Below, piece after piece: positions 8,282-30,985 of a DNA stretch of 32,087 nucleotides. Made by a program: the position numbers and the translations under genes. The notes under the pieces are model-generated. The model searched no databases, was not told where the DNA came from, and saw only the letters and a list, made by a program, of their open reading frames with translations. Location: positions 1 through 32,087 of the forward strand of contig PCTH01000086.1 in assembly GCA_002771475.1 (NCBI GenBank), written 5' to 3'. Positions within the stretch are counted from its first letter, which is position 1. Each line of letters starts with the position of its first letter. This DNA comes from Candidatus Omnitrophica bacterium CG22_combo_CG10-13_8_21_14_all_43_16. GTDB taxonomy: Bacteria; Omnitrophota; Gorgyraeia; Gorgyraeales; Gorgyraeaceae.

Positions 8282-8992
8282 ATGGCAAAGAAAATTAAAA
8301 AAACATCCAAATCCAGCGATACAATCGAAGCAATTTCAAAGATAAGCAAAGCCATATCAAGCGACTTGTACCTGGAAGACATATTAAAGCTTATAGTGAC
8401 TGTTACAGCGGAAGCGATGAACTCCAGGATTTGCTCATTGATGCTTCTGGACGATAAGAAACAATATTTAGATATCAGAGCCACGCAGAGCATAAGCGAA
8501 GAATATATAGGCAAAAAACCGCTGGCTAAAAGCGAGGGCGTTGCATGGAAAGTGGTACTCCAGAATAAACCTATAGTAGTACCAGATGTCACAAAAGAAC
8601 CTGAATATAAATACAAGGATATAGCTGTAAAAGAGAAACTAGTGTCTTTATTATGCGTGCCTTTGGCAGTCAAAGGGAAGGTAATAGGGGTATTGAACTG
8701 CTATACATCTGAGCCGCACAAATTTACGCCTACGGAAATAAATGTCCTCACAAGCGTTGCAAACCAGGCAGCTATTGCCATAGAGAATACAGAGCTCATG
8801 GTCAAGACAAAGGTTATCCAGGAAGAGCTTGAGACCAGAAAAGTGGTGGAAAGGGCAAAAGGGATTTTAATGGACCAGGAAGAGTTGTCGGAAGAAGATG
8901 CATTCAGGCGCATCCAGAAATACAGCATGGACCGCAGAAAGCCGATGAAAGATGTTGCTGAGGCGATAATAGTAGCGCACGAGATGAAATGA
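8282..8992 (+). CDS. GAF-ANTAR protein, predicted RNA-binding transcription antiterminator
   Basis: Predicted ligand-controlled antiterminator. Residues about 15-170 are a GAF sensor domain (EAISKISKAISSDLYLEDIL start; LLCVPLAVKGKVIGVLNCY core strands). A linker helix (about 170-187) leads to a C-terminal ANTAR domain (about 178-234). The ANTAR hallmarks are VVERAKGILM, LSEEDAFRRIQKYSMDRR and MKDVAEAII. ANTAR domains bind paired RNA hairpins with hexanucleotide loops and prevent terminator formation. No receiver or kinase domain is present, so the signal probably binds the GAF domain directly; the ligand is unknown. The gene follows lpxI by four bases and overlaps queF by ATGA, so it is transcribed with them. 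Five leaders with matching RNA architecture lie downstream in this window, all but one before recognisable nitrogen or regulatory genes, and are its likely targets. Confidence 0.93.
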   Translation: MAKKIKKTSKSSDTIEAISKISKAISSDLYLEDILKLIVTVTAEAMNSRICSLMLLDDKKQYLDIRATQSISEEYIGKKPLAKSEGVAWKVVLQNKPIVVPDVTKEPEYKYKDIAVKEKLVSLLCVPLAVKGKVIGVLNCYTSEPHKFTPTEINVLTSVANQAAIAIENTELMVKTKVIQEELETRKVVERAKGILMDQEELSEEDAFRRIQKYSMDRRKPMKDVAEAIIVAHEMK

Positions 8993-10717: not shown

Positions 10718-10753
10718 AGGGACGGTTCTAGTTTCATCTCTAGGGCCGTCCCT
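10718..10753 (+). terminator. Hairpin after glnA; copy 1 of a GGGACGGTTCT-type repeat
   Basis: A 14-bp stem pairs 10718-10731 with 10740-10753 (two G-U pairs) around an 8-base loop. The arms read AGGGACGGTTCTAG and CTAGGGCCGTCCCT. Only a weak T tract follows, so termination strength is unclear. A second hairpin with the same ACAGGGACGGTTCT start lies after gdhA (31018-31053), so this is also a dispersed repeat. Confidence 0.65.
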
Positions 10754-11079: not shown

Positions 11080-11107
11080 TTGACAGATAATTTTTTTGTG
11101 ATATACT
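11080..11107 (+). promoter_or_regulatory. Sigma-70-type promoter of the sigma-factor gene leader
   Basis: Perfect -35 TTGACA (11080-11085), 16-base spacer and -10 TATACT (11102-11107). The expected start, about 11113-11115, falls immediately before the P1 hairpin at 11116, so the transcript would begin with the ANTAR target structure. Confidence 0.75.
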
Positions 11108-11150
11108 ATAAATAGAAGCGCAAGGTAGCGCTTAAGAAGCAAAGCAATGG

Positions 11151-11171
11151 GGCGTTCGATAGAAGAACGCC
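11151..11171 (+). terminator. First hairpin of leader 1, candidate terminator
   Basis: Perfect 7-bp stem GGCGTTC/GAACGCC around the 7-base loop GATAGAA, followed by TTTTGTATTTT. The U tract is interrupted, so this is a weaker terminator than the one at 11193. Confidence 0.55.
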
Positions 11172-11192
11172 TTTTGTATTTTCAGGATAATG

Positions 11193-11231
11193 AAGTCCTT
11201 TTTGGCAGAATGGTTCTGTCGGAAAGGACTT
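11193..11231 (+). terminator. Conditional terminator of leader 1
   Basis: A 9-bp stem AAGTCCTTT/AAAGGACTT (11193-11201 with 11223-11231) encloses a further CAGAA/TTCTG stem. The run TTTTTTATTTT follows, starting with the last stem base. It competes with P2 of leader 1 for bases 11195-11199. Confidence 0.8.
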
Positions 11232-11255
11232 TTTTATTTTAAGGAGGTAATTAGT

Positions 11256-11765
11256 ATGGAATTTGAAGAATTATACCAGAGAGTCAGCCCGAGGTTAAAA
11301 AGGATAGCCAGTTTCTATGGCAGGAGAGGTTATTCCTTTGACAGGGATGACCTTTATCAGGAAATGACAAGCCATCTATGGGATAAGTTTAAGCTTGGGG
11401 TTCCTGAAGGGCTTAACGATACCTATATTATAAAGGGCTGTGAATTCCATATATTGAACTATATGAGAAAAGAAAGAGAAAAAATCCAAAGGATCAGCTT
11501 GGAAGAGCCTTTGAATGAGAGAGGAGATACATTGAGAGAGACTCTTCCTGCAAACTCCATGCCTTTAGATATGTCAGTTGACAGAAAAATGCTAGTAGAT
11601 CACGTAATGAATAATGGTTTTTCAAAAAATGAAAAAGAGGTTTTTGGATTTTTATTGGAAGGCTATACTGTAAGGGAGACTGGTAAAAAACTAGGGATTT
11701 CGCATGTAATGGTAGTGAAAATGAAAAATAAAATAATCAACAGGGTTACCAGATTAATGAATTAA
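11256..11765 (+). CDS. Small sigma-70-family (ECF-like) sigma factor
   Basis: A 169-residue protein with a region-2-like segment (SFDRDDLYQEMTSHLWDKF, about 27-45, then YIIKGCEFHILNYMRKER). A C-terminal region 4 helix-turn-helix follows (FSKNEKEVFGFLLEGYTVRETGKKLGISHVMV, about 126-157). There is no region 1 or full region 3, so it has ECF-like size. I start it at the ATG at 11256, with AAGGAGG nine bases upstream. An earlier in-frame ATG at 11190 would translate through the terminator and is unlikely. It is expressed behind ANTAR leader 1. Two promoters just downstream share an unusual block that it might recognise. No anti-sigma gene is adjacent. It could instead be a phage-type sigma-like regulator. 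Confidence 0.8.
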   Translation: MEFEELYQRVSPRLKRIASFYGRRGYSFDRDDLYQEMTSHLWDKFKLGVPEGLNDTYIIKGCEFHILNYMRKEREKIQRISLEEPLNERGDTLRETLPANSMPLDMSVDRKMLVDHVMNNGFSKNEKEVFGFLLEGYTVRETGKKLGISHVMVVKMKNKIINRVTRLMN

Positions 11766-11780
11766 TTACTTATGTAATTG
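11744..11780 (+). promoter_or_regulatory. Composite promoter-like block, copy 1 (OM barrel-amtB-P-II operon)
   Basis: GGTTACCA (11744-11751), 15 bases, then TACTTATGTAATTG (11767-11780). The identical two parts at the identical spacing recur at 14297-14333. Read as -35/-10, GGTTAC and TACTTA are 17 bases apart, normal promoter geometry with non-sigma-70 sequences. Copy 1 overlaps the last codons of the sigma gene. A TGTAAT at 11774 could alternatively serve as a sigma-70 -10, but no -35 matches it. Confidence 0.6.
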
Positions 11781-11783
11781 GTA

Positions 11784-11855
11784 AAGCACGTTGCAGTGCA
11801 TGATAAAGACGTCAAATTCAATGCTATGAAGGCATTTAGTTTGGCGTTTTTTTAT
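11784..11855 (+). promoter_or_regulatory. Predicted ANTAR antitermination leader 2 (OM barrel-amtB-P-II)
   Basis: P1 is GCAC/GTGC (11786-11789 with 11796-11799) around the hexaloop GTTGCA. It keeps G4 but has G instead of A at position 1, so it is the least typical P1. P2 is TGAT/GTCA (11801-11804 with 11811-11814, closing U-G pair) around AAAGAC, the same loop as in the gdhA leader. The P2 3' arm is shared with the terminator at 11809-11847, making them alternatives. Confidence 0.68.
11809..11853 (+). terminator. Conditional terminator of leader 2
   Basis: A 16-position stem pairs 11809-11824 with 11832-11847, with two G-U pairs and one mismatch, around the loop TATGAAG. A run of seven T (11847-11853) follows. 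It lies 22 bases before the GTG start of the next gene and must be bypassed for its expression. Confidence 0.85.
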
Positions 11856-11875: not shown

Positions 11876-12622
11876 GTGAAGGCTTTAAAAATTACGTTTT
11901 TCATTGTTTCCTGCTGCTTATTTATTGTCTCCCAAGGTTATGCTACTGCCAGCACTCATATCTGGGCGCCGTCTACAGACGTCCAACCTTATAAAAAATG
12001 GCATGTTACTTCTGATTATTATGTGCCTACGGAAAGTAATTCCGCAGGCGCGAGGCCCAATACTATAACTAACTTCGGGCTTACGGTTGGGGTGTTGCCT
12101 TTTGAAAAGCTGAACGCTGAAGTGGGATTTGACCACAAATCAGGATATGGAGACCTGGATGATTACCCGTGGTACTTTAATACTAAGGTAGGAATTCCTG
12201 AAAATGCTTATGGAAAATTTTTCCCTGCCCTGGCTATTGGAATATATGATGTAGGGACAAAGGAGAATAAAACAGCTTCTAACATTATATACGCGAAGGC
12301 CGCGAAGACATTTTCAGCCTGGGATTTATCTCTAGGCAGGGTTTCTTTGGGAGGCTTCCAGGGAGACGGAGATATATTGTTGCATAGCGATAAAAGAGAT
12401 AACAAAGGCCTTTTGTTTGCGTGGGAAAGGCCTATGCCTGAAATTTCGGATAAATTATGGATATGTCTTGAATATCAGGGGACAAGATCTTCGTACGGCT
12501 GTTGGAATGCAGGTTTTTCATGGAAATTCGCAGATAACGTTTCAGGTTTATTTGGATATGATTTTTATAACGATAGAGATTTGGCGGACACCTATACGGT
12601 GCAACTAGATATCGATTTTTAA
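11876..12622 (+). CDS. Outer-membrane beta-barrel protein co-transcribed with amtB, unknown function
   Basis: A 248-residue exported protein. A signal peptide (MKALKITFFIVSCCLFIVSQGYATA, cleavage near residue 25) is followed by alternating aromatic/polar strands (WHVTSDYYVPTES, FGLTVGVLP, LNAEVGFDH, LWICLEYQG, SYGCWNAGFSWKF). It ends in TVQLDIDF, a C-terminal Phe as in BAM substrates. I do not recognise a named family. GTG at 11876 is the start, with AAAGGAG eight bases upstream. An overlapping ATG at 11874 is closed by an immediate stop. Position between ANTAR leader 2 and amtB, 13 bases from amtB, suggests a porin-like role in letting ammonium or another nitrogen source through the outer membrane. 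That role is inference. Confidence 0.75.
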   Translation: MKALKITFFIVSCCLFIVSQGYATASTHIWAPSTDVQPYKKWHVTSDYYVPTESNSAGARPNTITNFGLTVGVLPFEKLNAEVGFDHKSGYGDLDDYPWYFNTKVGIPENAYGKFFPALAIGIYDVGTKENKTASNIIYAKAAKTFSAWDLSLGRVSLGGFQGDGDILLHSDKRDNKGLLFAWERPMPEISDKLWICLEYQGTRSSYGCWNAGFSWKFADNVSGLFGYDFYNDRDLADTYTVQLDIDF

Positions 12623-12635
12623 AAGGAGGTGTTTT

Positions 12636-13862
12636 ATGATTAATTCCGGCGATACAGCGTTTGTTTTGATTTCAGCGGCGCTTGTTATGCTTATGACTCC
12701 GGCACTAGCATTTTTCTACGGAGGCATAGTTAGGCGTAAAAATGTGCTTGGGATTTTGATGCAATGTATGGCAATACTTGCTTTTGTAAGTATTCAGTGG
12801 GTGTTGTTCGGATATAGCCTTTCTTTTGCTCCGGGGAATGCCATATTGGGAAGCCTTAAATGGGCTGGGTTAAATGGTGTTGGGTTAGAGCCTTATGCAG
12901 ACTATGCAGCGACTATCCCTCACCAGGCATTTATGATATTCCAGGCAATGTTTGCCATCATTACGCCGGCGCTTATTATAGGTGCATTTGCAGAGAGGAT
13001 GAAGTTTTCAGGTTTTATGATTTTTATACTTTTATGGGCAACACTTGTATATGATCCTGTTGCTCACTGGGTATGGGGAATCGGAGGGTGGCTCAGGAAT
13101 TTCGGAGCCTTGGATTTTGCAGGCGGAACAGTTGTGCATGTTAATGCAGGCATTGCTGCTCTTGTAACTGCATTATTAATAGGTAAAAGAAGAGGTGTTG
13201 AAAGGTCTCCTGCGCCCCATAACCTGCCTTTTGTTGTGCTTGGCGCAGGTCTATTGTGGTTTGGGTGGTTTGGGTTTAATTCAGGAAGCGCTTTGGCAGC
13301 AAACGGACTGGCAGTGAACGCGTTTGTAGTCACAAATACAGCTGCTGCAGCTGCAGGATTAAGCTGGGCAACCCTGGAATGGATGTTTAATGGCAAGCCT
13401 ACTATATTCGGAACCGTGACAGGTGCTGTAGCAGGATTGGTTGCTATTACGCCAGCTGCAGGATTTGTAAGCGTGATACCGGCGATAATAATAGGGTTAT
13501 TGGTTAGTGTATTTTGTTATATAGCAGTTGCATATGTTAAGCCGAAATTGGGTTATGATGATTCCTTGGACGCATTCGGAGTTCATGGGATAGGGGGCAT
13601 TTGGGGAGCATTAGCAACAGGCTTGTTTGCCTCAAAGGCTGTTAATCCAGCTGGTTCGGACGGGTTATTTTTCGGGAACCCGCATCAATTATTTGTGCAG
13701 GCAGTGGCGGTGTTGGTTACAATTGTTTATTCCGCGATAGTTACCTTTATTATATACAAGGTTGTTGACGCGGCGATAGGTATGCGCGTATCTGAGAAAG
13801 AAGAAACAGTTGGTCTTGATCTTAGTCAGCATCACGAAGGCGCGTATACGATGGTGGAGTAG
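12636..13862 (+). CDS. amtB: Ammonium transporter Amt/AmtB
   Basis: Trimeric inner-membrane ammonium channel. It has about eleven membrane segments over 408 residues and starts directly in the first helix (DTAFVLISAALVMLMTPALAFFYGG). The two pore histidines are His168 in GGTVVHVNAG and His317 in GVHGIGGIWG. AFAERMKFSGF and DPVAHWVWG are family motifs. There is no cleaved signal peptide, as in many Amt proteins outside enterobacteria. Shine-Dalgarno AAGGAGG lies seven bases before the ATG. It is followed after 80 bases by the P-II gene, the classic amtB-glnK pair, in which P-II plugs the channel when nitrogen is plentiful. Confidence 0.97.
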   Translation: MINSGDTAFVLISAALVMLMTPALAFFYGGIVRRKNVLGILMQCMAILAFVSIQWVLFGYSLSFAPGNAILGSLKWAGLNGVGLEPYADYAATIPHQAFMIFQAMFAIITPALIIGAFAERMKFSGFMIFILLWATLVYDPVAHWVWGIGGWLRNFGALDFAGGTVVHVNAGIAALVTALLIGKRRGVERSPAPHNLPFVVLGAGLLWFGWFGFNSGSALAANGLAVNAFVVTNTAAAAAGLSWATLEWMFNGKPTIFGTVTGAVAGLVAITPAAGFVSVIPAIIIGLLVSVFCYIAVAYVKPKLGYDDSLDAFGVHGIGGIWGALATGLFASKAVNPAGSDGLFFGNPHQLFVQAVAVLVTIVYSAIVTFIIYKVVDAAIGMRVSEKEETVGLDLSQHHEGAYTMVE

Positions 13863-13930: not shown

Positions 13931-13942
13931 GGAGGCGTAAAA

Positions 13943-14284
13943 ATGAAACTTATCATAGCGATTATACAACCGAGCAAATTTTCAGAAGTAAGGGATGAGC
14001 TGTACAAGTCAGAGGTAAACCTTATTACTGTCAGCGAGGTTCTGGGTCACGGAAGGCAAAAAGGATTTAGCGAGGTCTATCGCGGGGTAAAAGAGATGGG
14101 CAATCTTTTAAAAAAGATACGGCTTGAAATCGCAGTCAATGAAAACTTTGTAGAGCCTACGATCAAAGCTATTCTTAAAGGCGCGAAGACAGGCGAGACA
14201 GGCGATGGCAAAATATTTGTATTAGATTTAAAGGAGTGCGTCAGGATCAGGACAGAGGAACGCGGCTCTGTGGCTATCGGATAG
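13943..14284 (+). CDS. glnK: P-II nitrogen regulatory protein (GlnK/GlnB family) lacking Tyr51
   Basis: A 113-residue trimeric sensor of 2-oxoglutarate and ATP/ADP that normally gates AmtB. Family motifs are KLIIAIIQPSKF at the start, the T-loop GHGRQKGFSEVYRG (35-48), and the B-loop and C-terminal parts KTGETGDGKIFV (about 82-93) and VRIRTEERG. Counting from the ATG keeps canonical numbering: Tyr46 is present, but residue 51 is Glu instead of the uridylylated Tyr, and residue 49 is Val instead of the Ser phosphorylated in cyanobacteria. It therefore should not be uridylylated by GlnD. I use the ATG at 13943 with GGAGG seven bases upstream, not an in-frame TTG at 13928. A GlnK role is inferred from the amtB neighbour. 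Confidence 0.93.
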   Translation: MKLIIAIIQPSKFSEVRDELYKSEVNLITVSEVLGHGRQKGFSEVYRGVKEMGNLLKKIRLEIAVNENFVEPTIKAILKGAKTGETGDGKIFVLDLKECVRIRTEERGSVAIG

Positions 14285-14296
14285 AGCAATAATTTT

Positions 14297-14333
14297 GGTT
14301 ACCAAAATAGCCGAATTTTTACTTATGTAATTG
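14297..14333 (+). promoter_or_regulatory. Composite promoter-like block, copy 2 (GSI-beta-like glutamine synthetase)
   Basis: GGTTACCA (14297-14304), 15 bases, then TACTTATGTAATTG (14320-14333), matching 11744-11780 in both parts and in spacing. The surrounding ATTTTGG-TTA-CCAAAAT is also a 7-bp inverted repeat, so GGTTACCA could be an operator half rather than a -35. The P1 hairpin of leader 3 starts nine bases after the block. Confidence 0.6.
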
Positions 14334-14339
14334 AAGGTT

Positions 14340-14411
14340 AAGACACATAGTAGTGTTGAACATTGACGTTCAAAATGATCAAGGGGACTGATCAGGTTGA
14401 ACGTTTTTTTA
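14340..14411 (+). promoter_or_regulatory. Predicted ANTAR antitermination leader 3 (second glutamine synthetase)
   Basis: The clearest case. P1 is GACAC/GTGTT (14342-14346 with 14353-14357, one G-U) around hexaloop ATAGTA. P2 follows at once: TGAAC/GTTCA (14357-14361 with 14368-14372, extendable by one T-A pair) around hexaloop ATTGAC. Both loops have A1 and G4. The P2 3' arm GTTCAA is also the 5' arm of the terminator (14366-14404), so binding that stabilises P2 would prevent termination. Confidence 0.85.
14366..14410 (+). terminator. Conditional terminator of leader 3
   Basis: The outer stem ACGTTCAA/TTGAACGT (14366-14373 with 14397-14404) and inner stem TGATCA/TGATCA (14376-14381 with 14389-14394) enclose the loop AGGGGAC. 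Seven T follow (14404-14410). It lies upstream of the ATG of the glutamine synthetase gene. Confidence 0.85.
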
Positions 14412-14431: not shown

Positions 14432-15943
14432 ATGACAAAGTCAAAATCAGTAAAGACGGCAGATAAAGTAAAAACAAAGAACCCTCTTGTAAACGGCTCT
14501 TTCAATGAAAAAGCAGCCAGGGACGTGATGAGCCTTATAAAGGAGAAAGGCATTAAGATTATTGACCTGAAATTCAATGATATGCCGGGTCTTTGGCAGC
14601 ATTTTTCAATACCTGCGACAGAATTAAAAGACATGCCGGACTTGACCCGTTCAATATGGGTGGACGGTATAGGTTTTGACGGTTCTTCAATAAGAGGTTT
14701 TCAGAAAATACAGGAATCAGATATGATTATGATACCTGACCCTAGCACAGCTGTTATTGATCCTGTATGTGAGGTTCCCACGTTAAGCATGATCTGCGAT
14801 ATTTATGACCCTTTGACTCGCAAGGCTTACACAAGGGATCCCAGATACATAGCAAAGAAAGCTGAGAAATATCTTAAAGAAACAGGCATAGCAGATACTG
14901 TGTATTTTGGGCCAGAAGCGGAGTTTTTTATCTTTAACAGCATCCGATTTGACCAGACTGAAAACTCAGGCTACTACTTTATCGATTCTAATGAAGCAGA
15001 CTGGAATACCGGCCGCGATGAAAACCCTAATTTAGGTTATAAAATACGTTTTAAAGAAGGGTATTTTCCTGTACCGCCGCATGATTCCATGCAGGACTTA
15101 AGAAGCAGGATTATTCTAAAGATGATAGAAGCAGGCATTAACATAGAAGTGCATCATCATGAAGTTGCTACTGCCGGGCAATGCGAGATTGATATCAAGT
15201 ATAATAGTTTGACTAAGATGGCAGATGATCTCCTGCTTTATAAGTATATCATTAAAAATATGGCTAAGCAGAATGGCATGGTAGCTACATTTATGCCAAA
15301 GCCTCTTTTTGCGGATAATGGCTCAGGCATGCACTGCCACCAGAGTTTGTGGAAAAACGGGAAAAATATTTTCTTTAACAAGAGCGGTTATGCGCTTTTA
15401 AGCCAGACAGCAAAGTATTATATAGGAGGACTTTTAAAGCACGCTAATAGTTTAATGGCTTTCTGCGCGCCTACGACAAATTCTTACAAAAGGCTTGTGC
15501 CAGGGTATGAAGCGCCTGTAAACCTGGTGTATTCAGCTAGAAACCGCTCAGCAGCAGTGAGAATTCCTATGTATACGGATAATCCGAAATCCAAGAGAAT
15601 AGAGTTCAGGCCGCCTGATCCGTCATGTAATGGATATCTTGCGTTCAGCGCTATGCTAATGGCAGGTTTGGATGGGATAAAGAATAAGATTGACCCGGGC
15701 GAACCTACGGATACGGATTTATTTGAATTAAACGAAGAGGAATTAAGTAAGATAGCCACGGTTCCTTCATCCTTACGTCGGGCAGTAGATGCCCTGGAAG
15801 CTGATAACGAGTATTTATTAAAAGGAGGGGTGTTCACGAAAGATGTGATAGATATCTGGATTGAGTATAAACGTAAAAGAGAAATAGATCCTGTAAGGAT
15901 GAGGCCGCACCCGTACGAATTTTATTTGTATTTTGATATTTGA
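14432..15943 (+). CDS. glnA: Glutamine synthetase, type I (GSI-beta-like) without the adenylylation Tyr
   Basis: Second glutamine synthetase, 503 residues. About 35 extra N-terminal residues precede the beta-grasp domain ([18 protein letters not shown]). The active site is complete: [75 protein letters not shown] and [15 protein letters not shown]. The long insertion after AEFFIF ([12 protein letters not shown]) is typical of the GSI-beta group, whose members are usually switched off by adenylylation of a Tyr in NLYDLPPEE. Here that segment reads DLFELNEEE, with Phe431 (codon TTT) in place of the Tyr. Control therefore seems to lie at leader 3. Shine-Dalgarno AAAGGAG lies seven bases before the ATG. 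Confidence 0.95.
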
Positions 15944-16063: not shown

Positions 16064-16270
16064 ATGGATATAGCCAATTCTTTCATAACAATTCAAAAAG
16101 GCGAGATATATAAATCTGTTATAGGCGATATAGAAAAGGCGCTTATTGAAAAAGCCCTGGAATACACATCCGGCAATCAGATCACTGCTGCAAGACTCCT
16201 CGGCATAAACAGAAACACAATACGTTCCAAGATAAAAAAATTAAACATAGATGTAAACAGGTTTAAATAA
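16064..16270 (+). CDS. Orphan Fis-type helix-turn-helix protein in front of gltB
   Basis: A 68-residue protein consisting almost entirely of the DNA-binding module found at the C-terminus of NtrC-type activators and in Fis. LIEKALEYTSGNQITAARLLGINRNTIRSKIKKLNID (about 29-65) contains the A-A-x-x-L-G-I-x-R-x-T-(I/L) helix-turn-helix signature. No receiver or AAA+ domain is present and no upstream reading frame supports a lost one, so it is a stand-alone nucleoid or regulator protein. It ends one base before the gltB ATG, so it is co-translated with glutamate synthase. A role in controlling gltBD is plausible but inferred. The ribosome binding site is weak. Confidence 0.85.
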   Translation: MDIANSFITIQKGEIYKSVIGDIEKALIEKALEYTSGNQITAARLLGINRNTIRSKIKKLNIDVNRFK

Positions 16271-20807: not shown

Positions 20808-22245
20808 TCCGCGAGGATTCTTAAAATCAGCAAGAAAGACCGGCGCTTACAGGCTGGTTTGCGAGCGCGTCAAGGATTTTAAAGAAGTCAGCGTCCTGCG
20901 GCCAGAAAAAGAATCCGAGGTACAGGCTTCGCGCTGCATGGATTGCTCTACGCCTTTCTGTCATTGGGGTTGTCCAATAGGGAATTATATACCTGAATGG
21001 AATGATTATATGTTTCGTGGCAATTGGAAAGCTGCGCTTACGCTATTGGAAGCCACAAATAACCTGTCTGAGATAACAGGAAGAATCTGCCCGGCATTAT
21101 GCGAACACGCGTGCGTCCTGGGCTTGAATGACGACGCTGTTACTATACGGGAAAATGAGCTGAGCGTTATAGAGCTGGGATTTAAGAAAGGGCTGATTAA
21201 GCCAGGAGCAGTAAAGAAAAACACAGGCAAGAAAATAGCTATTATCGGCTCAGGCCCTGCAGGGCTTTCCTGCGCCAGCCAGCTTAATAAAGCAGGCCAC
21301 AGCGTAACTGTTTTTGAGCGGGATAAAGAGCCGGGAGGAATACTTCGTTACGGCATTCCTGATTTTAAACTAGAAAAATCTATCATAGACAGGCGCATCG
21401 ATATCTGGAAAAAAGAAGGGATTAGTTTTAAGACAGGGGTAAACGTGGGCGTGGACTATTCTAGCAAAAAACTTCTGGAAGAATTTGATGCAGTCTGCCT
21501 GGCAGGCGGGGCGCGTGCACCGAGAGACCTTAAAATAGAAGGAAGGGATCTAAAAGGCATATATTTTGCCATGGATTATTTAGCGCAGTCAAATGTCCGC
21601 TCAAGCGGGGAAAAGGTTCCAAAAGATGAATTGATCGACGCCAAAGGCAAGAAGGTTGTGGTTATAGGCGGAGGAGATACCGGGGCTGATTGCGTGGGCA
21701 CAGCTAATCGTCAGGACGCGGCCTGCGTAGCACAGATAGAAGTCTTGCCCAAGCCTTATGAATGCAGGCCTTCTAACCAGCCCTGGCCGAACTATCCAAT
21801 GCTATTAAAGACAACTTCCAGCCACGAAGAAGGCGGCGAGCGGCACTGGGCAGTGCTTACGAAAAAATTTATCGGAGAAAAAGGTATTGTGAAAAAACTT
21901 TCCTGCGTAAAAGTGGAATTTTCTGAAGGCGATTCTAAGACTTGCTCTGTGATGAAAGAAATCCCAGGGAGCGAATTTGAGATAGAAGCTGATATGGCGA
22001 TTCTTGCAGTAGGATTTTTGCATCCGGAACATTCCGGGCTGCTCACGGATCTCAACGTAGAATTCGATAGACGCGGTAACGTAAAAACAGGCGAAGATTA
22101 TAAGACATCAGTTGAGAAAGTGTTTGCCGCAGGGGATATGAGGCGGGGGCAGTCGCTTGTGGTGTGGGCTATTTCAGAAGGCAGGCGTTCCGCCTACTAT
22201 ATTGATAAGGATCTTATAGGCGAGAGCAGTCTGCCGTTAATTTGA
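20800..22245 (+). CDS. gltD: Glutamate synthase small (beta) subunit GltD
   Basis: NADPH-oxidising partner of GltB, 481 residues. An N-terminal ferredoxin-like region carries the cysteines for two 4Fe-4S clusters (SRCMDCSTPFCHWGCP, about 44-59, and GRICPALCEHAC, about 93-104). An FAD-binding Rossmann motif (IAIIGSGPAGLSCASQL, about 147-163) and the NADPH motif (VVVIGGGDTGADCVGTA, about 285-301) follow. The C-terminal KVFAAGDMRRGQSLVVWAI is the usual FAD-site signature. Start ATG lies inside the end of gltB, with GGAGG about six bases upstream. Together with the glutamine synthetases it completes the GS-GOGAT cycle. Confidence 0.97.
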   Translation: MGDPRGFLKSARKTGAYRLVCERVKDFKEVSVLRPEKESEVQASRCMDCSTPFCHWGCPIGNYIPEWNDYMFRGNWKAALTLLEATNNLSEITGRICPALCEHACVLGLNDDAVTIRENELSVIELGFKKGLIKPGAVKKNTGKKIAIIGSGPAGLSCASQLNKAGHSVTVFERDKEPGGILRYGIPDFKLEKSIIDRRIDIWKKEGISFKTGVNVGVDYSSKKLLEEFDAVCLAGGARAPRDLKIEGRDLKGIYFAMDYLAQSNVRSSGEKVPKDELIDAKGKKVVVIGGGDTGADCVGTANRQDAACVAQIEVLPKPYECRPSNQPWPNYPMLLKTTSSHEEGGERHWAVLTKKFIGEKGIVKKLSCVKVEFSEGDSKTCSVMKEIPGSEFEIEADMAILAVGFLHPEHSGLLTDLNVEFDRRGNVKTGEDYKTSVEKVFAAGDMRRGQSLVVWAISEGRRSAYYIDKDLIGESSLPLI

Positions 22246-22252
22246 GATAGTT

Positions 22253-22575
22253 CTGACCAGCTCTGCTAGGCCTACAAAAAGACGCTCGTCCGCCCCAGCG
22301 TGACGGACTTCGCTCCGCGTCGATTCTCGCTCGCCCTGTCAGGCAGGTCTGAGGCGCATTTGAGAAGTTTCGGCATCACAGATTATTTAAAGTATAAGCG
22401 CGCAAGGGATTACGGCAAAGTTTTTTATACTGTCAAGACTACCTTCAGTATAAAAAACGAGCCGTAAACCGTAGCGCGCGGCGAAACATTCTCTGCGCCG
22501 AACGGCCCGCCTGACAGGGCACCGTGCCCGCTCGAATCGACGAGGCTTTTCTTTAGGCCTAGCAGAGCTGGTCAG
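22253..22575 (+). repeat. 323-bp fold-back palindrome (MITE-like element or giant leader hairpin)
   Basis: The gap between gltD and the next gene holds no convincing gene but one large inverted repeat. The outermost 21 bases (22253-22273) are perfectly complementary to the last 21 (22555-22575). Inward, matching blocks follow in order: 22318-22326 with 22534-22542, 22334-22344 with 22509-22519 (11 bp), 22398-22403 with 22474-22479, 22410-22416 with 22461-22467, and 22420-22432 with 22446-22458 (13 bp) around a 13-base loop. Unpaired arm segments differ in length. No target-site duplication is evident at the ends. It may be a non-autonomous mobile element or a long structured RNA in the leader of the gene at 22602. 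Confidence 0.85.
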
Positions 22576-22601
22576 CACAAATCGAATAAGGAGTTATTGA
22601 A

Positions 22602-25193
22602 ATGATAAGTACCGGGATAAAAGGTTTAGACAATGTAATTACAGGCCTGAGGCTTGGGGATAACGTAGTCTGGCAGATAGACGATATAGAGGCCTATGCC
22701 TACTTAGTAAAGCCTTTTGTGCGCCAGGCGTTAAAAGATAATAAAAAAGTTATATACCTGAGGTTCGCCTGCCATAAAGAACTGCTTGAGCCGTCAAAAG
22801 AAATAAAAAGATATGAGCTGAACGCCTCAGCCGGGTTTGAAACTTTCACGACAAAGGTAAACAGCATAATCACACAGGAAGGCGAAGGCGCGTATTATGT
22901 GTTCGACTGCTTGTCAGAACTTCTTTTGGCATGGGCTACAGACCTTATGATAGGAAACTTTTTTATGGTGACCTGCCCTTACCTGTATGAGCTTAAAACA
23001 GTCACGTATTTTTCTATATTACGCAATAGCCATTCTTTCAAATCCATAGCCACTATACGCGAGACAACCCAGCTATTAATGGACGCGTACCGCTGCGAAG
23101 GCAATCTATATATACATCCTTTAAAAGTATGGAACAGGTATTCTCCTACCATGTTTCTGCCGCACCAGAAAGAAAAAGACAAGTTTGTGCCTATTGCGGA
23201 TAGCGTGGATGCCGTAAAGATATTATCCTATATCAGGGACCAAGGCGTGGATAGCGCAAAAAGAAATCTCGACTACTGGGACCGGTTATTCCTTGAGGCA
23301 GAGGAACTGATAAGAAGCAATGCGCCGCAAGAGAAAATAAAGGACATGATAAAAAAGCTTTGCAGTATCATGATTTCCTCTAACAAAAAGATGCTCTCAA
23401 TGGCAGTGGAAAATTTTCCGCTGGAAGAACTCGTGGATATCAAATCCAGACTGATAGGAACTGGTTTTATCGGCGGTAAAAGCGTAGGAATGCTTCTTGC
23501 CAGAAAGATCCTTTCCGAGGACAAATCTCTGAACTGGAAAAAACTTTCAGAGCCGCATGATTCATTTTATATAGGCTCAAATATATTTTATTCTTATATT
23601 GTGCAGAACAAGTGGTGGAAACTGCATGTGCAGCAGAAGACCGGAGACGGTTATTTCAGCATCGCAAAAATTTTAAAAGAGAAAATGCTCTATGGGGTGT
23701 TTTCCGAAGAGATCATGGAGCATTTTCAGCAGATTATAGAATATTTCGGGGCATCGCCTATCATAATACGCTCCAGCTCTTTACTGGAAGACGGGTTTGG
23801 GAATGCATTCGCAGGTAAATATGAAAGCATATTTCTGGCGAACCAGGGAACTCCTGAGCAAAGGTATATCCAGTTTGCAGAAGCTGTAAAAAAGATTTAC
23901 GCAAGCACTATGAATGAAGATGCCCTTACATACAGGAAACAAAGGGGTCTTGATAAGTTAGACGAACAAATGGCGCTTCTGGTACAGAGGGTTTCAGGCG
24001 CATATCACAAAGATTATTTCTTCCCGGATCTTGCCGGGGTAGGCGTTTCTTATAATACATACGTGTGGAATGAAGATATGAATCCGAAAGAAGGCATGTT
24101 AAGGATGGTCTTCGGGCTTGGAACAAGGGCGGTCAATAGAGTAGAGGGAGATTATCCGAGAATGGTTGCTCTTAGCGATCCTTTGGCTAGGCCGTATGCG
24201 GAAAAAGACGATTTAAGAAAATTTTCACAGCATGAAGTAGATGTCATAGACACAAAGGAAAATATTTTTAAAGCAATGCCTTTTAATAAACTTGTAAGCG
24301 AAGGATTATACCTGGAAGCAGACCGCGTAGCTGTAAAAGACGAAGAGGGCATGGCGATGATGAGCCATTCCAGCGCAAAGGCCAAAGAATATTGGATATT
24401 GACATTAGATAGCATTTTTAGCGATAATACCATGGATAGCTACTTTAAGAAAATTTTGAAAGCACTTGAAGAAAGCTATAATTATCCGGTTGAGATAGAA
24501 TTCACAATAAATTTTACCGGAGAGAGCGCGTTTAAAATAAATCTTTTACAATGCAGGCCTCTGCAGGCAAGCGGGCTAGGCCGCAAGGTGGACATCCCCA
24601 GCCATGTAAAAAAAGAGGACATCCTTTTTGAATCGAGCGGGTATTTTCTGGGAGGAAATATCGCGCTCGATATTAAAAGAATTATATATGTTGATCCGGA
24701 AAAATATACGGGTCTTATATTGTCAGATAAACATGAGATCGCTCGCATAGTAGGCAGTCTGAACAGGGATATAGAAAACAAAGAAGAAATGCCTGCTATT
24801 CTTATGGGGCCAGGAAGATGGGGGAGCACAACCCCGTCTCTGGGCGTGCCGGTAAAATTTGCGGAAATAAATAATATAGCGGTCTTAAGCGAGATTGCTT
24901 TTTCAGCCGGCAATCTCATGCCTGAGCTATCTTTCGGAACGCACTTTTTCCAAGACCTGGTAGAGACAAAAATATTTTATGTAGCGCTTTTCCCTGAAAG
25001 GAAAGAAGTCTTATTCAATACAGGATGGCTTGGGAAGCTTAGAAATTTATTTACGGAACTCAGGCCGGAGTCTTCAAAATATCAAGACATTATTAGCGTA
25101 TATGATGTAAGAGACAAAGGCCTCAGGATAATGTCTGATGTGGTATCCCAGAAGGTTATATGTTTTTCAAGCCAGAAGAAGGTGCTTAAATGA
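22602..25193 (+). CDS. Degenerate KaiC-like domain fused to a PEP synthase/PPDK N-terminal domain, unknown function
   Basis: An 863-residue protein. Residues 1-200 begin like a KaiC/RecA-type ATPase (STGIKGLDNVITGLRLGDNVVW), but the Walker A loop is replaced by QIDDIEAYAY, so it should not bind ATP normally. Residues about 285-660 resemble the ATP-grasp (PPDK_N) domain of phosphoenolpyruvate synthase and pyruvate phosphate dikinase: GGKSVGMLLA, PIIIRSSSLLEDGFGNAFAGKYES (two overlapping parts, about 386-409) and INLLQCRPLQ. The swivelling phosphohistidine domain (GG-x-x-SH) and the PEP-binding barrel are missing; the C-terminal 200 residues are unrecognised. It is thus not a normal PEP synthase and may phosphorylate or sense another substrate. 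It overlaps carA by four bases. Confidence 0.75.
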   Translation: MISTGIKGLDNVITGLRLGDNVVWQIDDIEAYAYLVKPFVRQALKDNKKVIYLRFACHKELLEPSKEIKRYELNASAGFETFTTKVNSIITQEGEGAYYVFDCLSELLLAWATDLMIGNFFMVTCPYLYELKTVTYFSILRNSHSFKSIATIRETTQLLMDAYRCEGNLYIHPLKVWNRYSPTMFLPHQKEKDKFVPIADSVDAVKILSYIRDQGVDSAKRNLDYWDRLFLEAEELIRSNAPQEKIKDMIKKLCSIMISSNKKMLSMAVENFPLEELVDIKSRLIGTGFIGGKSVGMLLARKILSEDKSLNWKKLSEPHDSFYIGSNIFYSYIVQNKWWKLHVQQKTGDGYFSIAKILKEKMLYGVFSEEIMEHFQQIIEYFGASPIIIRSSSLLEDGFGNAFAGKYESIFLANQGTPEQRYIQFAEAVKKIYASTMNEDALTYRKQRGLDKLDEQMALLVQRVSGAYHKDYFFPDLAGVGVSYNTYVWNEDMNPKEGMLRMVFGLGTRAVNRVEGDYPRMVALSDPLARPYAEKDDLRKFSQHEVDVIDTKENIFKAMPFNKLVSEGLYLEADRVAVKDEEGMAMMSHSSAKAKEYWILTLDSIFSDNTMDSYFKKILKALEESYNYPVEIEFTINFTGESAFKINLLQCRPLQASGLGRKVDIPSHVKKEDILFESSGYFLGGNIALDIKRIIYVDPEKYTGLILSDKHEIARIVGSLNRDIENKEEMPAILMGPGRWGSTTPSLGVPVKFAEINNIAVLSEIAFSAGNLMPELSFGTHFFQDLVETKIFYVALFPERKEVLFNTGWLGKLRNLFTELRPESSKYQDIISVYDVRDKGLRIMSDVVSQKVICFSSQKKVLK

Positions 25194-29475: not shown

Positions 29476-29504
29476 TTGCCAACGGGAAAACGTATTGATA
29501 TAAT
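29476..29504 (+). promoter_or_regulatory. Sigma-70-type promoter of gdhA
   Basis: -35 TTGCCA (29476-29481), 17-base spacer, perfect -10 TATAAT (29499-29504). The expected start near 29511 lies directly before the P1 hairpin of leader 4. Confidence 0.75.
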
Positions 29505-29509
29505 AAAAC

Positions 29510-29592
29510 CCAGCTTGGCACAATGGCTGTGCCTGGAAAAGGGTTAGGACAAAGACGTTCTAAAAATTGACGGCATAGAACGTCTTTTTTAT
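29510..29592 (+). promoter_or_regulatory. Predicted ANTAR antitermination leader 4 (gdhA)
   Basis: P1 is GGCAC/GTGCC (29517-29521 with 29529-29533) around AATGGCT. The first six bases fit A1/G4, but the loop is seven bases, or five if an extra A-T pair closes. P2 is a strong 7-bp hairpin TTAGGAC/GTTCTAA (29544-29550 with 29557-29563, one G-U) around hexaloop AAAGAC, with A1 and G4. The P2 3' arm is also the 5' arm of the terminator at 29553-29585. Confidence 0.82.
29553..29590 (+). terminator. Conditional terminator of leader 4
   Basis: Perfect 10-bp stem AGACGTTCTA/TAGAACGTCT (29553-29562 with 29576-29585), 13-base loop, then a T run. Two further A-T pairs can extend the stem into the T run. 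Confidence 0.88.

Positions 29593-29629: not shown

Positions 29630-30985
<1,356 letters not shown>

Follow-up and report, generated by a model that had tools for sequence, protein, structure and literature searches.

Transcription attenuators controlled by ANTAR proteins have been described for the eut genes of Enterococcus faecalis (EutV), nasF of Klebsiella (NasR), and amiE of Pseudomonas (AmiR). Their leaders carry two hairpins, P1 and P2, whose hexaloops have A at position 1 and G at position 4 (A1/G4), and the second hairpin overlaps an intrinsic terminator (PMC3369931, PMC8934654). The linkers between P1 and P2 are 5 to 12 nt long in E. faecalis eut (PMC3369931) and 2 to 25 nt long in actinobacteria (PMC8164766), and Tyr164 of EutV is the aromatic residue that stacks on loop G4 (PMC8934654). 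In Desulfotomaculum acetoxidans, an ANTAR nitrogen regulon comprises 13 attenuators over six transcription units. ANTAR attenuation, its link to nitrogen genes, and the presence of several attenuators in one transcription unit are already known (PMC3369931).

Here, we describe such a leader in front of a sigma factor gene. The window (i.e., the whole stretch of DNA that was analyzed, 32,087 nt) is contig PCTH01000086.1 of a metagenome-assembled genome (MAG) of an uncultured Omnitrophota bacterium, and the functional steps proposed below were read from its sequence. We propose with considerable confidence that an ANTAR attenuator controls the gene of an ECF-like nitrogen-assimilation sigma factor and that the same sensor also gates the targets of this sigma factor, which would form a coherent feed-forward loop. 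The locus resembles the eut, nasF, and amiE systems in having A1/G4 hexaloop hairpins that overlap intrinsic terminators, nitrogen-related genes, and a homologous ANTAR domain. It differs from them in that the controlled gene encodes a sigma factor, in that two terminators, each overlapping a P2 of its own, come after a single P1 without a second P1 between them, and in that the P1 loops of related leaders are often 7 nt long. The sensor is a GAF-ANTAR protein, whereas EutV is a REC-ANTAR protein. As in D. acetoxidans, the amtB, P-II, and glutamine/glutamate synthase genes carry several attenuators, and a single transcription unit can have more than one. Neither a sigma factor nor a promoter class of its own has been reported for the D. 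acetoxidans regulon (PMC3369931), whereas here a sigma layer appears to be interposed, with its targets gated again.

The encoded protein shares with ECF (group 4) sigma factors (TIGR02937) a two-domain sigma2-sigma4 architecture of approximately 170 aa and a candidate -35/-10 motif of fixed spacing. Unlike those factors, it has no adjoining anti-sigma gene, its synthesis is apparently under transcription attenuation, and its predicted regulon is ammonium assimilation. Like sigma-54 (RpoN), it would be an alternative sigma factor for nitrogen-assimilation genes, such as glnA and amtB, but both the protein, a member of the sigma-70 family, and the promoter are unrelated to those of sigma-54. 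A literature search of incomplete coverage did not return any description of a sigma factor under ANTAR control; the parts are known, and neither the circuit nor the promoter class was found described in the literature searched.

Leader of the sigma gene

The sigma gene (11256 to 11765, plus strand, as are all features below) is preceded by a housekeeping sigma-70 promoter at positions 11080 to 11107 (TTGACA and TATACT separated by 16 nt, with an extended -10 TG; 11 of 12 consensus matches) and by a Shine-Dalgarno sequence, AAGGAGG, at positions 11241 to 11247. An earlier note on this DNA had described a P1 hairpin with the loop AAGGTA, right at the predicted transcript start, and two terminator hairpins in series, the first with a possible overlapping P2-like fold and the second overlapping a P2. 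These features are all present, give or take one or two bases. P1 (11116 to 11133; stem AAGCGC/GCGCTT, 6 bp) begins about 8 nt past the -10 box, folds with -8.9 kcal/mol (z = -4.1), and is kept in relatives. A promoter scan from P1 to the start codon at 11256 detected no second plus-strand sigma-70-like promoter. The first terminator, T1 (11149 to 11173), is indeed a U-tailed hairpin, and the overlapping fold with the loop AATGGG, P2a (11144 to 11153; stem GC/GC), exists but is weak, its 2 bp being followed by a mismatch (-0.8 kcal/mol and z = +1.0 when folded alone). The second terminator, T2 (11192 to 11232; U-tailed, 19 bp), is stronger than T1, as had been noted, and overlaps a P2 with the loop AATGAA. 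This hairpin, P2b (11184 to 11199; stem AGGAT/GTCCT, 5 bp), reaches -4.4 kcal/mol alone; the 65-nt stretch of T2 reaches -28.8 kcal/mol (z = -7.4), and 0 of 200 shuffles were as stable. The z score of the whole leader relative to its shuffles was -7.9.

ANTAR targets have been defined by two hairpins of at least 3 bp with hexaloops carrying A1 and G4. P1 and P2b show all of these properties, and P2a has the right loop letters on a 2-bp stem. Overlap of a P2 with a terminator upstream of a gene is found both for P2b with T2 and for P2a with T1. The leader scored 16.9 bits with a dual-hairpin covariance model. That model was used for finding candidates only; its use as a classifier was rejected because a match in a coding sequence (C16:4780) ranked as high as true leaders. 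Rfam, searched over the whole window at the gathering threshold, gave no match to the element, which we do not count against an ANTAR assignment because ANTAR seems to be without an Rfam family. The linker between P1 and P2a is 10 nt, and that between P1 and P2b is 50 nt. The latter is beyond the linkers tolerated by EutV (PMC3369931, PMC8934654) and thus too long for the known mode. The gap between T1 and P2b is only 10 nt, so that a second P1 cannot fit before P2b.

The sigma gene was detected in 45 of 147 relatives (E value of ≤0.001), and the removal of two weak partial matches left 43 sigma-bearing genomes. In a contig scan with 152 relatives, the gene was found mostly in Omnitrophota and also in MAGs named WOR-3, Elusimicrobiota, Aerophobetes, Desantisbacteria, and Syntrophorhabdus/Syntrophus. 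Many of the upstream regions share one plan, i.e., an extended -10 sigma-70 promoter, a P1 that usually lies 8 to 13 nt past the promoter, and then one to three terminators. At least two terminators were present in 45 of 86 leaders of relatives. P2-type hairpins (at least 4 bp, A1/G4 loop) overlapped the first terminator in 24 of 72 cases and the second terminator in 18 of 42 cases, compared with 4.1 and 3.5 expected from shuffled flanks, respectively. The two-terminator plan and the P2 hairpins are thus conserved across related genomes, and the proposal of the earlier note that serial ANTAR attenuators control the sigma gene is supported by the anatomy of the leader and by dozens of relatives. 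The P2 stems differ among relatives, including those equivalent to P2b (AGGAT/GTCCT, CAAAC/GTTTG, GCCC/GGGC, TAGAAC/GTTCTA, and GGGAT/ATCCT); therefore, pairing rather than sequence is conserved. In several tandem leaders, T1 and P2b are separated by 1 to 12 nt, which is too short for a second P1 and indicates the plan P1-P2a/T1-P2b/T2. An A1/G4 loop is retained at the place of P2a in many relatives. Because P2a is unstable alone, the case for it is based on this conservation and not on stability.

An interspersed repeat, aataatcccgagccg...gcggcgagggat, was observed within the sigma leader of two same-genus relatives (L002, positions 251 to 460, and L015). It lies between T1 and T2 in both and additionally before the gene in L002; P1, T1, and T2 are intact in the two leaders despite the repeat. 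A loss of P1 and T1 considered for genome G003 was rejected, as inserted repeats had displaced both elements upstream.

It is very improbable that the hairpins are ordinary constitutive intergenic terminators that act independently of ANTAR. Intergenic terminators are common, and one lies after the upstream gene at 10718, but a near-consensus promoter lies upstream of the hairpins here, P1 sits at the expected start, the A1/G4 hexaloops are carried on varying stems, and a dual hairpin with a terminator also precedes the amtB, glnA, and gdhA-like genes (see below). An arrangement with one ANTAR-gated step, in which T2 alone (or T1 alone) is regulated and the remaining hairpin acts simply as a terminator or pause site, would agree with the weakness of P2a in this genome and with the many T1 hairpins of relatives that lack a 4-bp P2. 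We nevertheless regard it as unlikely, given that most of the relatives read have, just before T1, a loop with G4, usually with A1, and a C-G closing pair, that serial terminators are as frequent as described above, and that several leaders (L183, L193, L196, G135, and G093) have strong P2 stems at both terminators.

The sigma factor and its candidate sensor

The gene that the earlier note had called sigma-like starts with ATG at 11256 and encodes a protein of 169 aa, which its profile match and fold place in the sigma-70 family as an ECF-like alternative sigma factor. The protein scored 50.8 bits against NCBIfam TIGR02937, above the cutoff of 42.9, and 23.1 bits against Pfam Sigma70_r2, just below the 24-bit cutoff. 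Signatures of region 2 (DDLYQEM) and region 4 (TVREIGxxLGISHVMVVK) are kept in 27 relatives. The AlphaFold model had a mean pLDDT of 84.5, and a Foldseek search of the PDB with this model returned mostly sigma factors and RNA polymerase-sigma complexes. The whole-chain TM scores of these fold matches were low (0.3 to 0.4), which probably reflects the non-fixed relative placement of the two domains. A cognate anti-sigma gene adjoining an ECF sigma gene is common, albeit not universal; none was matched among the neighboring genes scanned with Pfam, and the sigma gene ends within the candidate promoter of the porin-amtB operon. No match to RpoN was obtained in the genome assembly, and some relatives have both RpoN and the sigma factor.

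PF03861 has a single match in the genome, a GAF-ANTAR protein of 236 aa with a C-terminal ANTAR domain, a predicted RNA-binding antiterminator (8282 to 8992; 81 bits for Pfam ANTAR, with a cutoff of 27.3, and 87 bits for GAF_2). Its gene lies 2.3 kb upstream of the sigma gene; in 18 of the 43 sigma-bearing genomes, no more than 3 kb separates an ANTAR gene from the sigma gene. The ANTAR part aligns with the EutV, NasR, Rv1626, and AmiR chains, and the position of EutV Tyr164 appears to be occupied by Phe.

A candidate promoter motif associated with the sigma gene

In the 3' flanks of sigma genes, the boxes GGTTACCAAA and TTTTTACTT lie with 15 nt between their cores, and a further ANTAR leader comes after them. 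We defined these boxes as the candidate cognate promoter (GGTTACCAAA-N~11-TTTTTACTT for the full boxes; core GTTACCA-N15-TACTT). Across 80 loci that were chosen solely by the sigma protein, 96 motifs with a spacer of 15 nt were found on the sigma strand, compared with at most 2 for any other spacing and 0 on the opposite strand. The motif was present in 41 of 43 genomes with the sigma gene and in 11 of 104 genomes without it (147 genomes; Fisher P = 1e-23). When the sigma labels were permuted within taxonomic families, 0 of 20,000 permutations reached 41 (maximum, 37). Two genomes with the sigma gene (G104 and G115) lack the exact motif. Of the sites in the 11 motif-bearing genomes in which the sigma gene was not detected, six appear to be chance occurrences (no A/T flanks and no leader), the sites in G001, G008, G034, and G068 are near contig ends, where a sigma gene could be missing, and G143 belongs to neither group. 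A few motif sites in sigma-bearing genomes were likewise dismissed as chance because they have no A/T flanks and no leader.

The genes behind the motif are largely those of nitrogen assimilation. For 84 sites, the first gene on the 3' side encoded glutamine synthetase in 36 cases (30 Gln-synt_C and 6 type III [GSIII_N], counted as separate members), AmtB in 12, glutamate synthase in about 5, P-II in 2, NifH in 1, and an ANTAR protein in 1; the other first genes encoded mostly porin-like proteins of amtB operons. A strict ANTAR-leader descriptor matched within 200 nt downstream of 46 of the 83 motifs in sigma-bearing genomes, compared with none of 950 shuffles and none of 435 windows elsewhere in these loci. 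This descriptor had been relaxed from a version requiring hexaloops and 4-bp P1 stems, which missed heptaloop P1s. Most of the remaining motif sites have leaders with imperfect stems, as judged by eye. The earlier note had suggested that, with a sigma factor under ANTAR control, a single RNA-binding sensor would be able to drive a larger regulon. This idea gains support from the fixed-spacer motif, which tracks the sigma gene and lies before nitrogen-assimilation operons; most of these motif-bearing operons have ANTAR leaders of their own. One relative (L084; G087:C19) has a sigma-type promoter before nifH, which suggests that nitrogen fixation can also be under the control of the sigma factor.

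In the genome studied here, the core has exactly two matches, at positions 11745 and 14298, and both lie before ANTAR leaders of nitrogen genes. The first candidate promoter (11745 to 11771) overlaps the 3' end of the sigma gene and is upstream of a porin-amtB-P-II operon. The leader of this operon contains a P1 (11786 to 11799; stem GCAC/GTGC, loop GTTGCA) with G, not A, at loop position 1, a P2 (11801 to 11814; stem TGAT/GTCA, loop AAAGAC), and an intrinsic terminator (11805 to 11851). The first gene (11876 to 12622) encodes a putative outer-membrane beta-barrel (porin-like) protein, which had no matches in Pfam or NCBIfam; a similar protein precedes amtB in relatives. It is followed by the genes for the ammonium transporter AmtB (12636 to 13862; Pfam, 436.9 bits) and a P-II nitrogen regulatory protein (13940 to 14284; Pfam, 91.4 bits). 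The second candidate promoter (14298 to 14324) is upstream of glnA (14432 to 15943), which encodes a type I glutamine synthetase (TIGR00653, 682.6 bits). The glnA leader has a dual hairpin (14343 to 14371; stem ACAC/GTGT with loop ATAGTA and stem GAAC/GTTC with loop ATTGAC) and an intrinsic terminator (14365 to 14405). The dual hairpin scored 38.9 bits with the covariance model (E value of 6e-9 in the window) and was among the sequences used to build that model.

Lineages that have only the sigma gene or only the ANTAR gene indicate that the motif goes with the sigma factor and the hairpins go with ANTAR. Three Desantisbacteria-like genomes (G154 to G156) have the sigma gene, and no ANTAR protein was found in them; the motif lies 85 to 92 nt before glnA, without a hairpin-terminator leader. 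Genomes with ANTAR and without the sigma gene (e.g., G042, G067, G071, and G122) have ANTAR leaders on the amtB side, downstream of TTGACA/TATA promoters, and the GTTACC motif was found in 0 of 40 amtB upstream regions of this set, which includes two regions from G115, where the sigma gene is present and the motif absent. In five Syntrophorhabdus/Syntrophus-type loci, the sigma gene is directly behind an apparent nadE C terminus, according to our own reading of the sequence. The sigma gene of the Syntrophorhabdus type has no ANTAR leader; in most of these genomes, the motif is found at other loci, including, in several of them, sites before amtB with serial ANTAR leaders. The missing motif beside distant sigma homologues was considered as a counterexample and rejected because most such genomes carry the motif elsewhere.

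These distributions bear on the possibility that a DNA-binding activator binds GTTACCA-N15-TACTT and cooperates with sigma-70, in which case the sigma gene would be under ANTAR control with its regulon elsewhere. The AT-rich region after TACTT could hold a degenerate sigma-70 -10 box, and ECF promoters usually have shorter -10 motifs. The spacer, however, is fixed at 15 nt, as would be expected of two promoter boxes; the presence of the motif follows that of the sigma gene in different families and phyla, even where the two are unlinked or ANTAR is missing; and no other conserved regulator was seen beside the motif in a non-systematic look. We therefore consider an activator site quite unlikely and retain the motif as a candidate promoter of the sigma factor.

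Proposed circuit and further ANTAR leaders

The computed results cover the hairpins and terminators with their conservation, the assignment of the protein to the sigma family, and the promoter motif together with its link to the sigma gene; from them, we infer how binding, readthrough, promoter recognition, and the signal may fit together. The sigma transcript would start at the sigma-70 promoter next to P1, and RNA polymerase would halt at T1 or T2 whenever active ANTAR protein is lacking. Under nitrogen shortage, sensed by the GAF domain (2-oxoglutarate as the ligand is a guess), an ANTAR dimer on P1 and the P2 hairpins would keep the terminators from forming, and the sigma factor would be made. 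The sigma factor would then guide RNA polymerase to the GGTTACCAAA-N~11-TTTTTACTT promoters of amtB/P-II and glnA. Because these transcripts begin with ANTAR leaders, the sensor would act twice, according to AND logic. The serial terminators, an arrangement that is itself conserved, may lower leakage and sharpen the response. Given the 50-nt distance between P1 and P2b, either a second dimer would bridge P2a and P2b or the first dimer would be handed on. More generally, it is likely that this sigma-70-family nitrogen sigma factor is a dedicated, functional counterpart of sigma-54 in Omnitrophota and several other phyla, with serial ANTAR attenuators controlling its synthesis and the same sensor gating most of its target transcripts a second time.

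If this proposal is true, ANTAR antitermination can head a transcription-initiation cascade, and sensing at the RNA level becomes part of a sigma cascade in the form of a feed-forward AND gate. A further prediction is that glnA, amtB, gltB, and P-II in widespread uncultured bacteria, as well as nifH in one relative, have promoters of a previously unreported class, GGTTACCAAA...TTTTTACTT. These are sharp predictions: the spacer is set at 15 nt, and the lineages with only the sigma gene or only the ANTAR gene serve as natural controls. The serial P1-P2-P2 attenuator also raises a direct question for the model of successive binding by ANTAR dimers.

Other genes of this genome would be gated by ANTAR alone, behind sigma-70-type promoters. 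A gdhA-like (glutamate dehydrogenase-like) gene at 29642, named from our own reading of the sequence, has a leader region at positions 29476 to 29592. This region contains a sigma-70-type promoter (29476 to 29504; TTGCCA and TATAAT separated by 17 nt) and an ANTAR dual hairpin with a terminator after it (29517 to 29560; 7-nt P1 loop; P2 stem GGAC/GTTC with loop AAAGAC; covariance model, 29.4 bits). On another contig, a carB-like (carbamoyl-phosphate synthase large-subunit-like) gene (L304; G000:C10:3007) has a sigma-70-like promoter and a probable ANTAR leader with a weak P1.

Further observations concern the glutamate synthase region of the window. A stand-alone Fis-type HTH protein of 68 aa (16064 to 16270) precedes a glutamate synthase gene in this genome, in which RpoN was not found. 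A long imperfect inverted repeat, gaccagctctgctaggcct ... aggcctagcagagctggtc, occupies positions 22240 to 22580, between the glutamate synthase genes and the gene at 22602.
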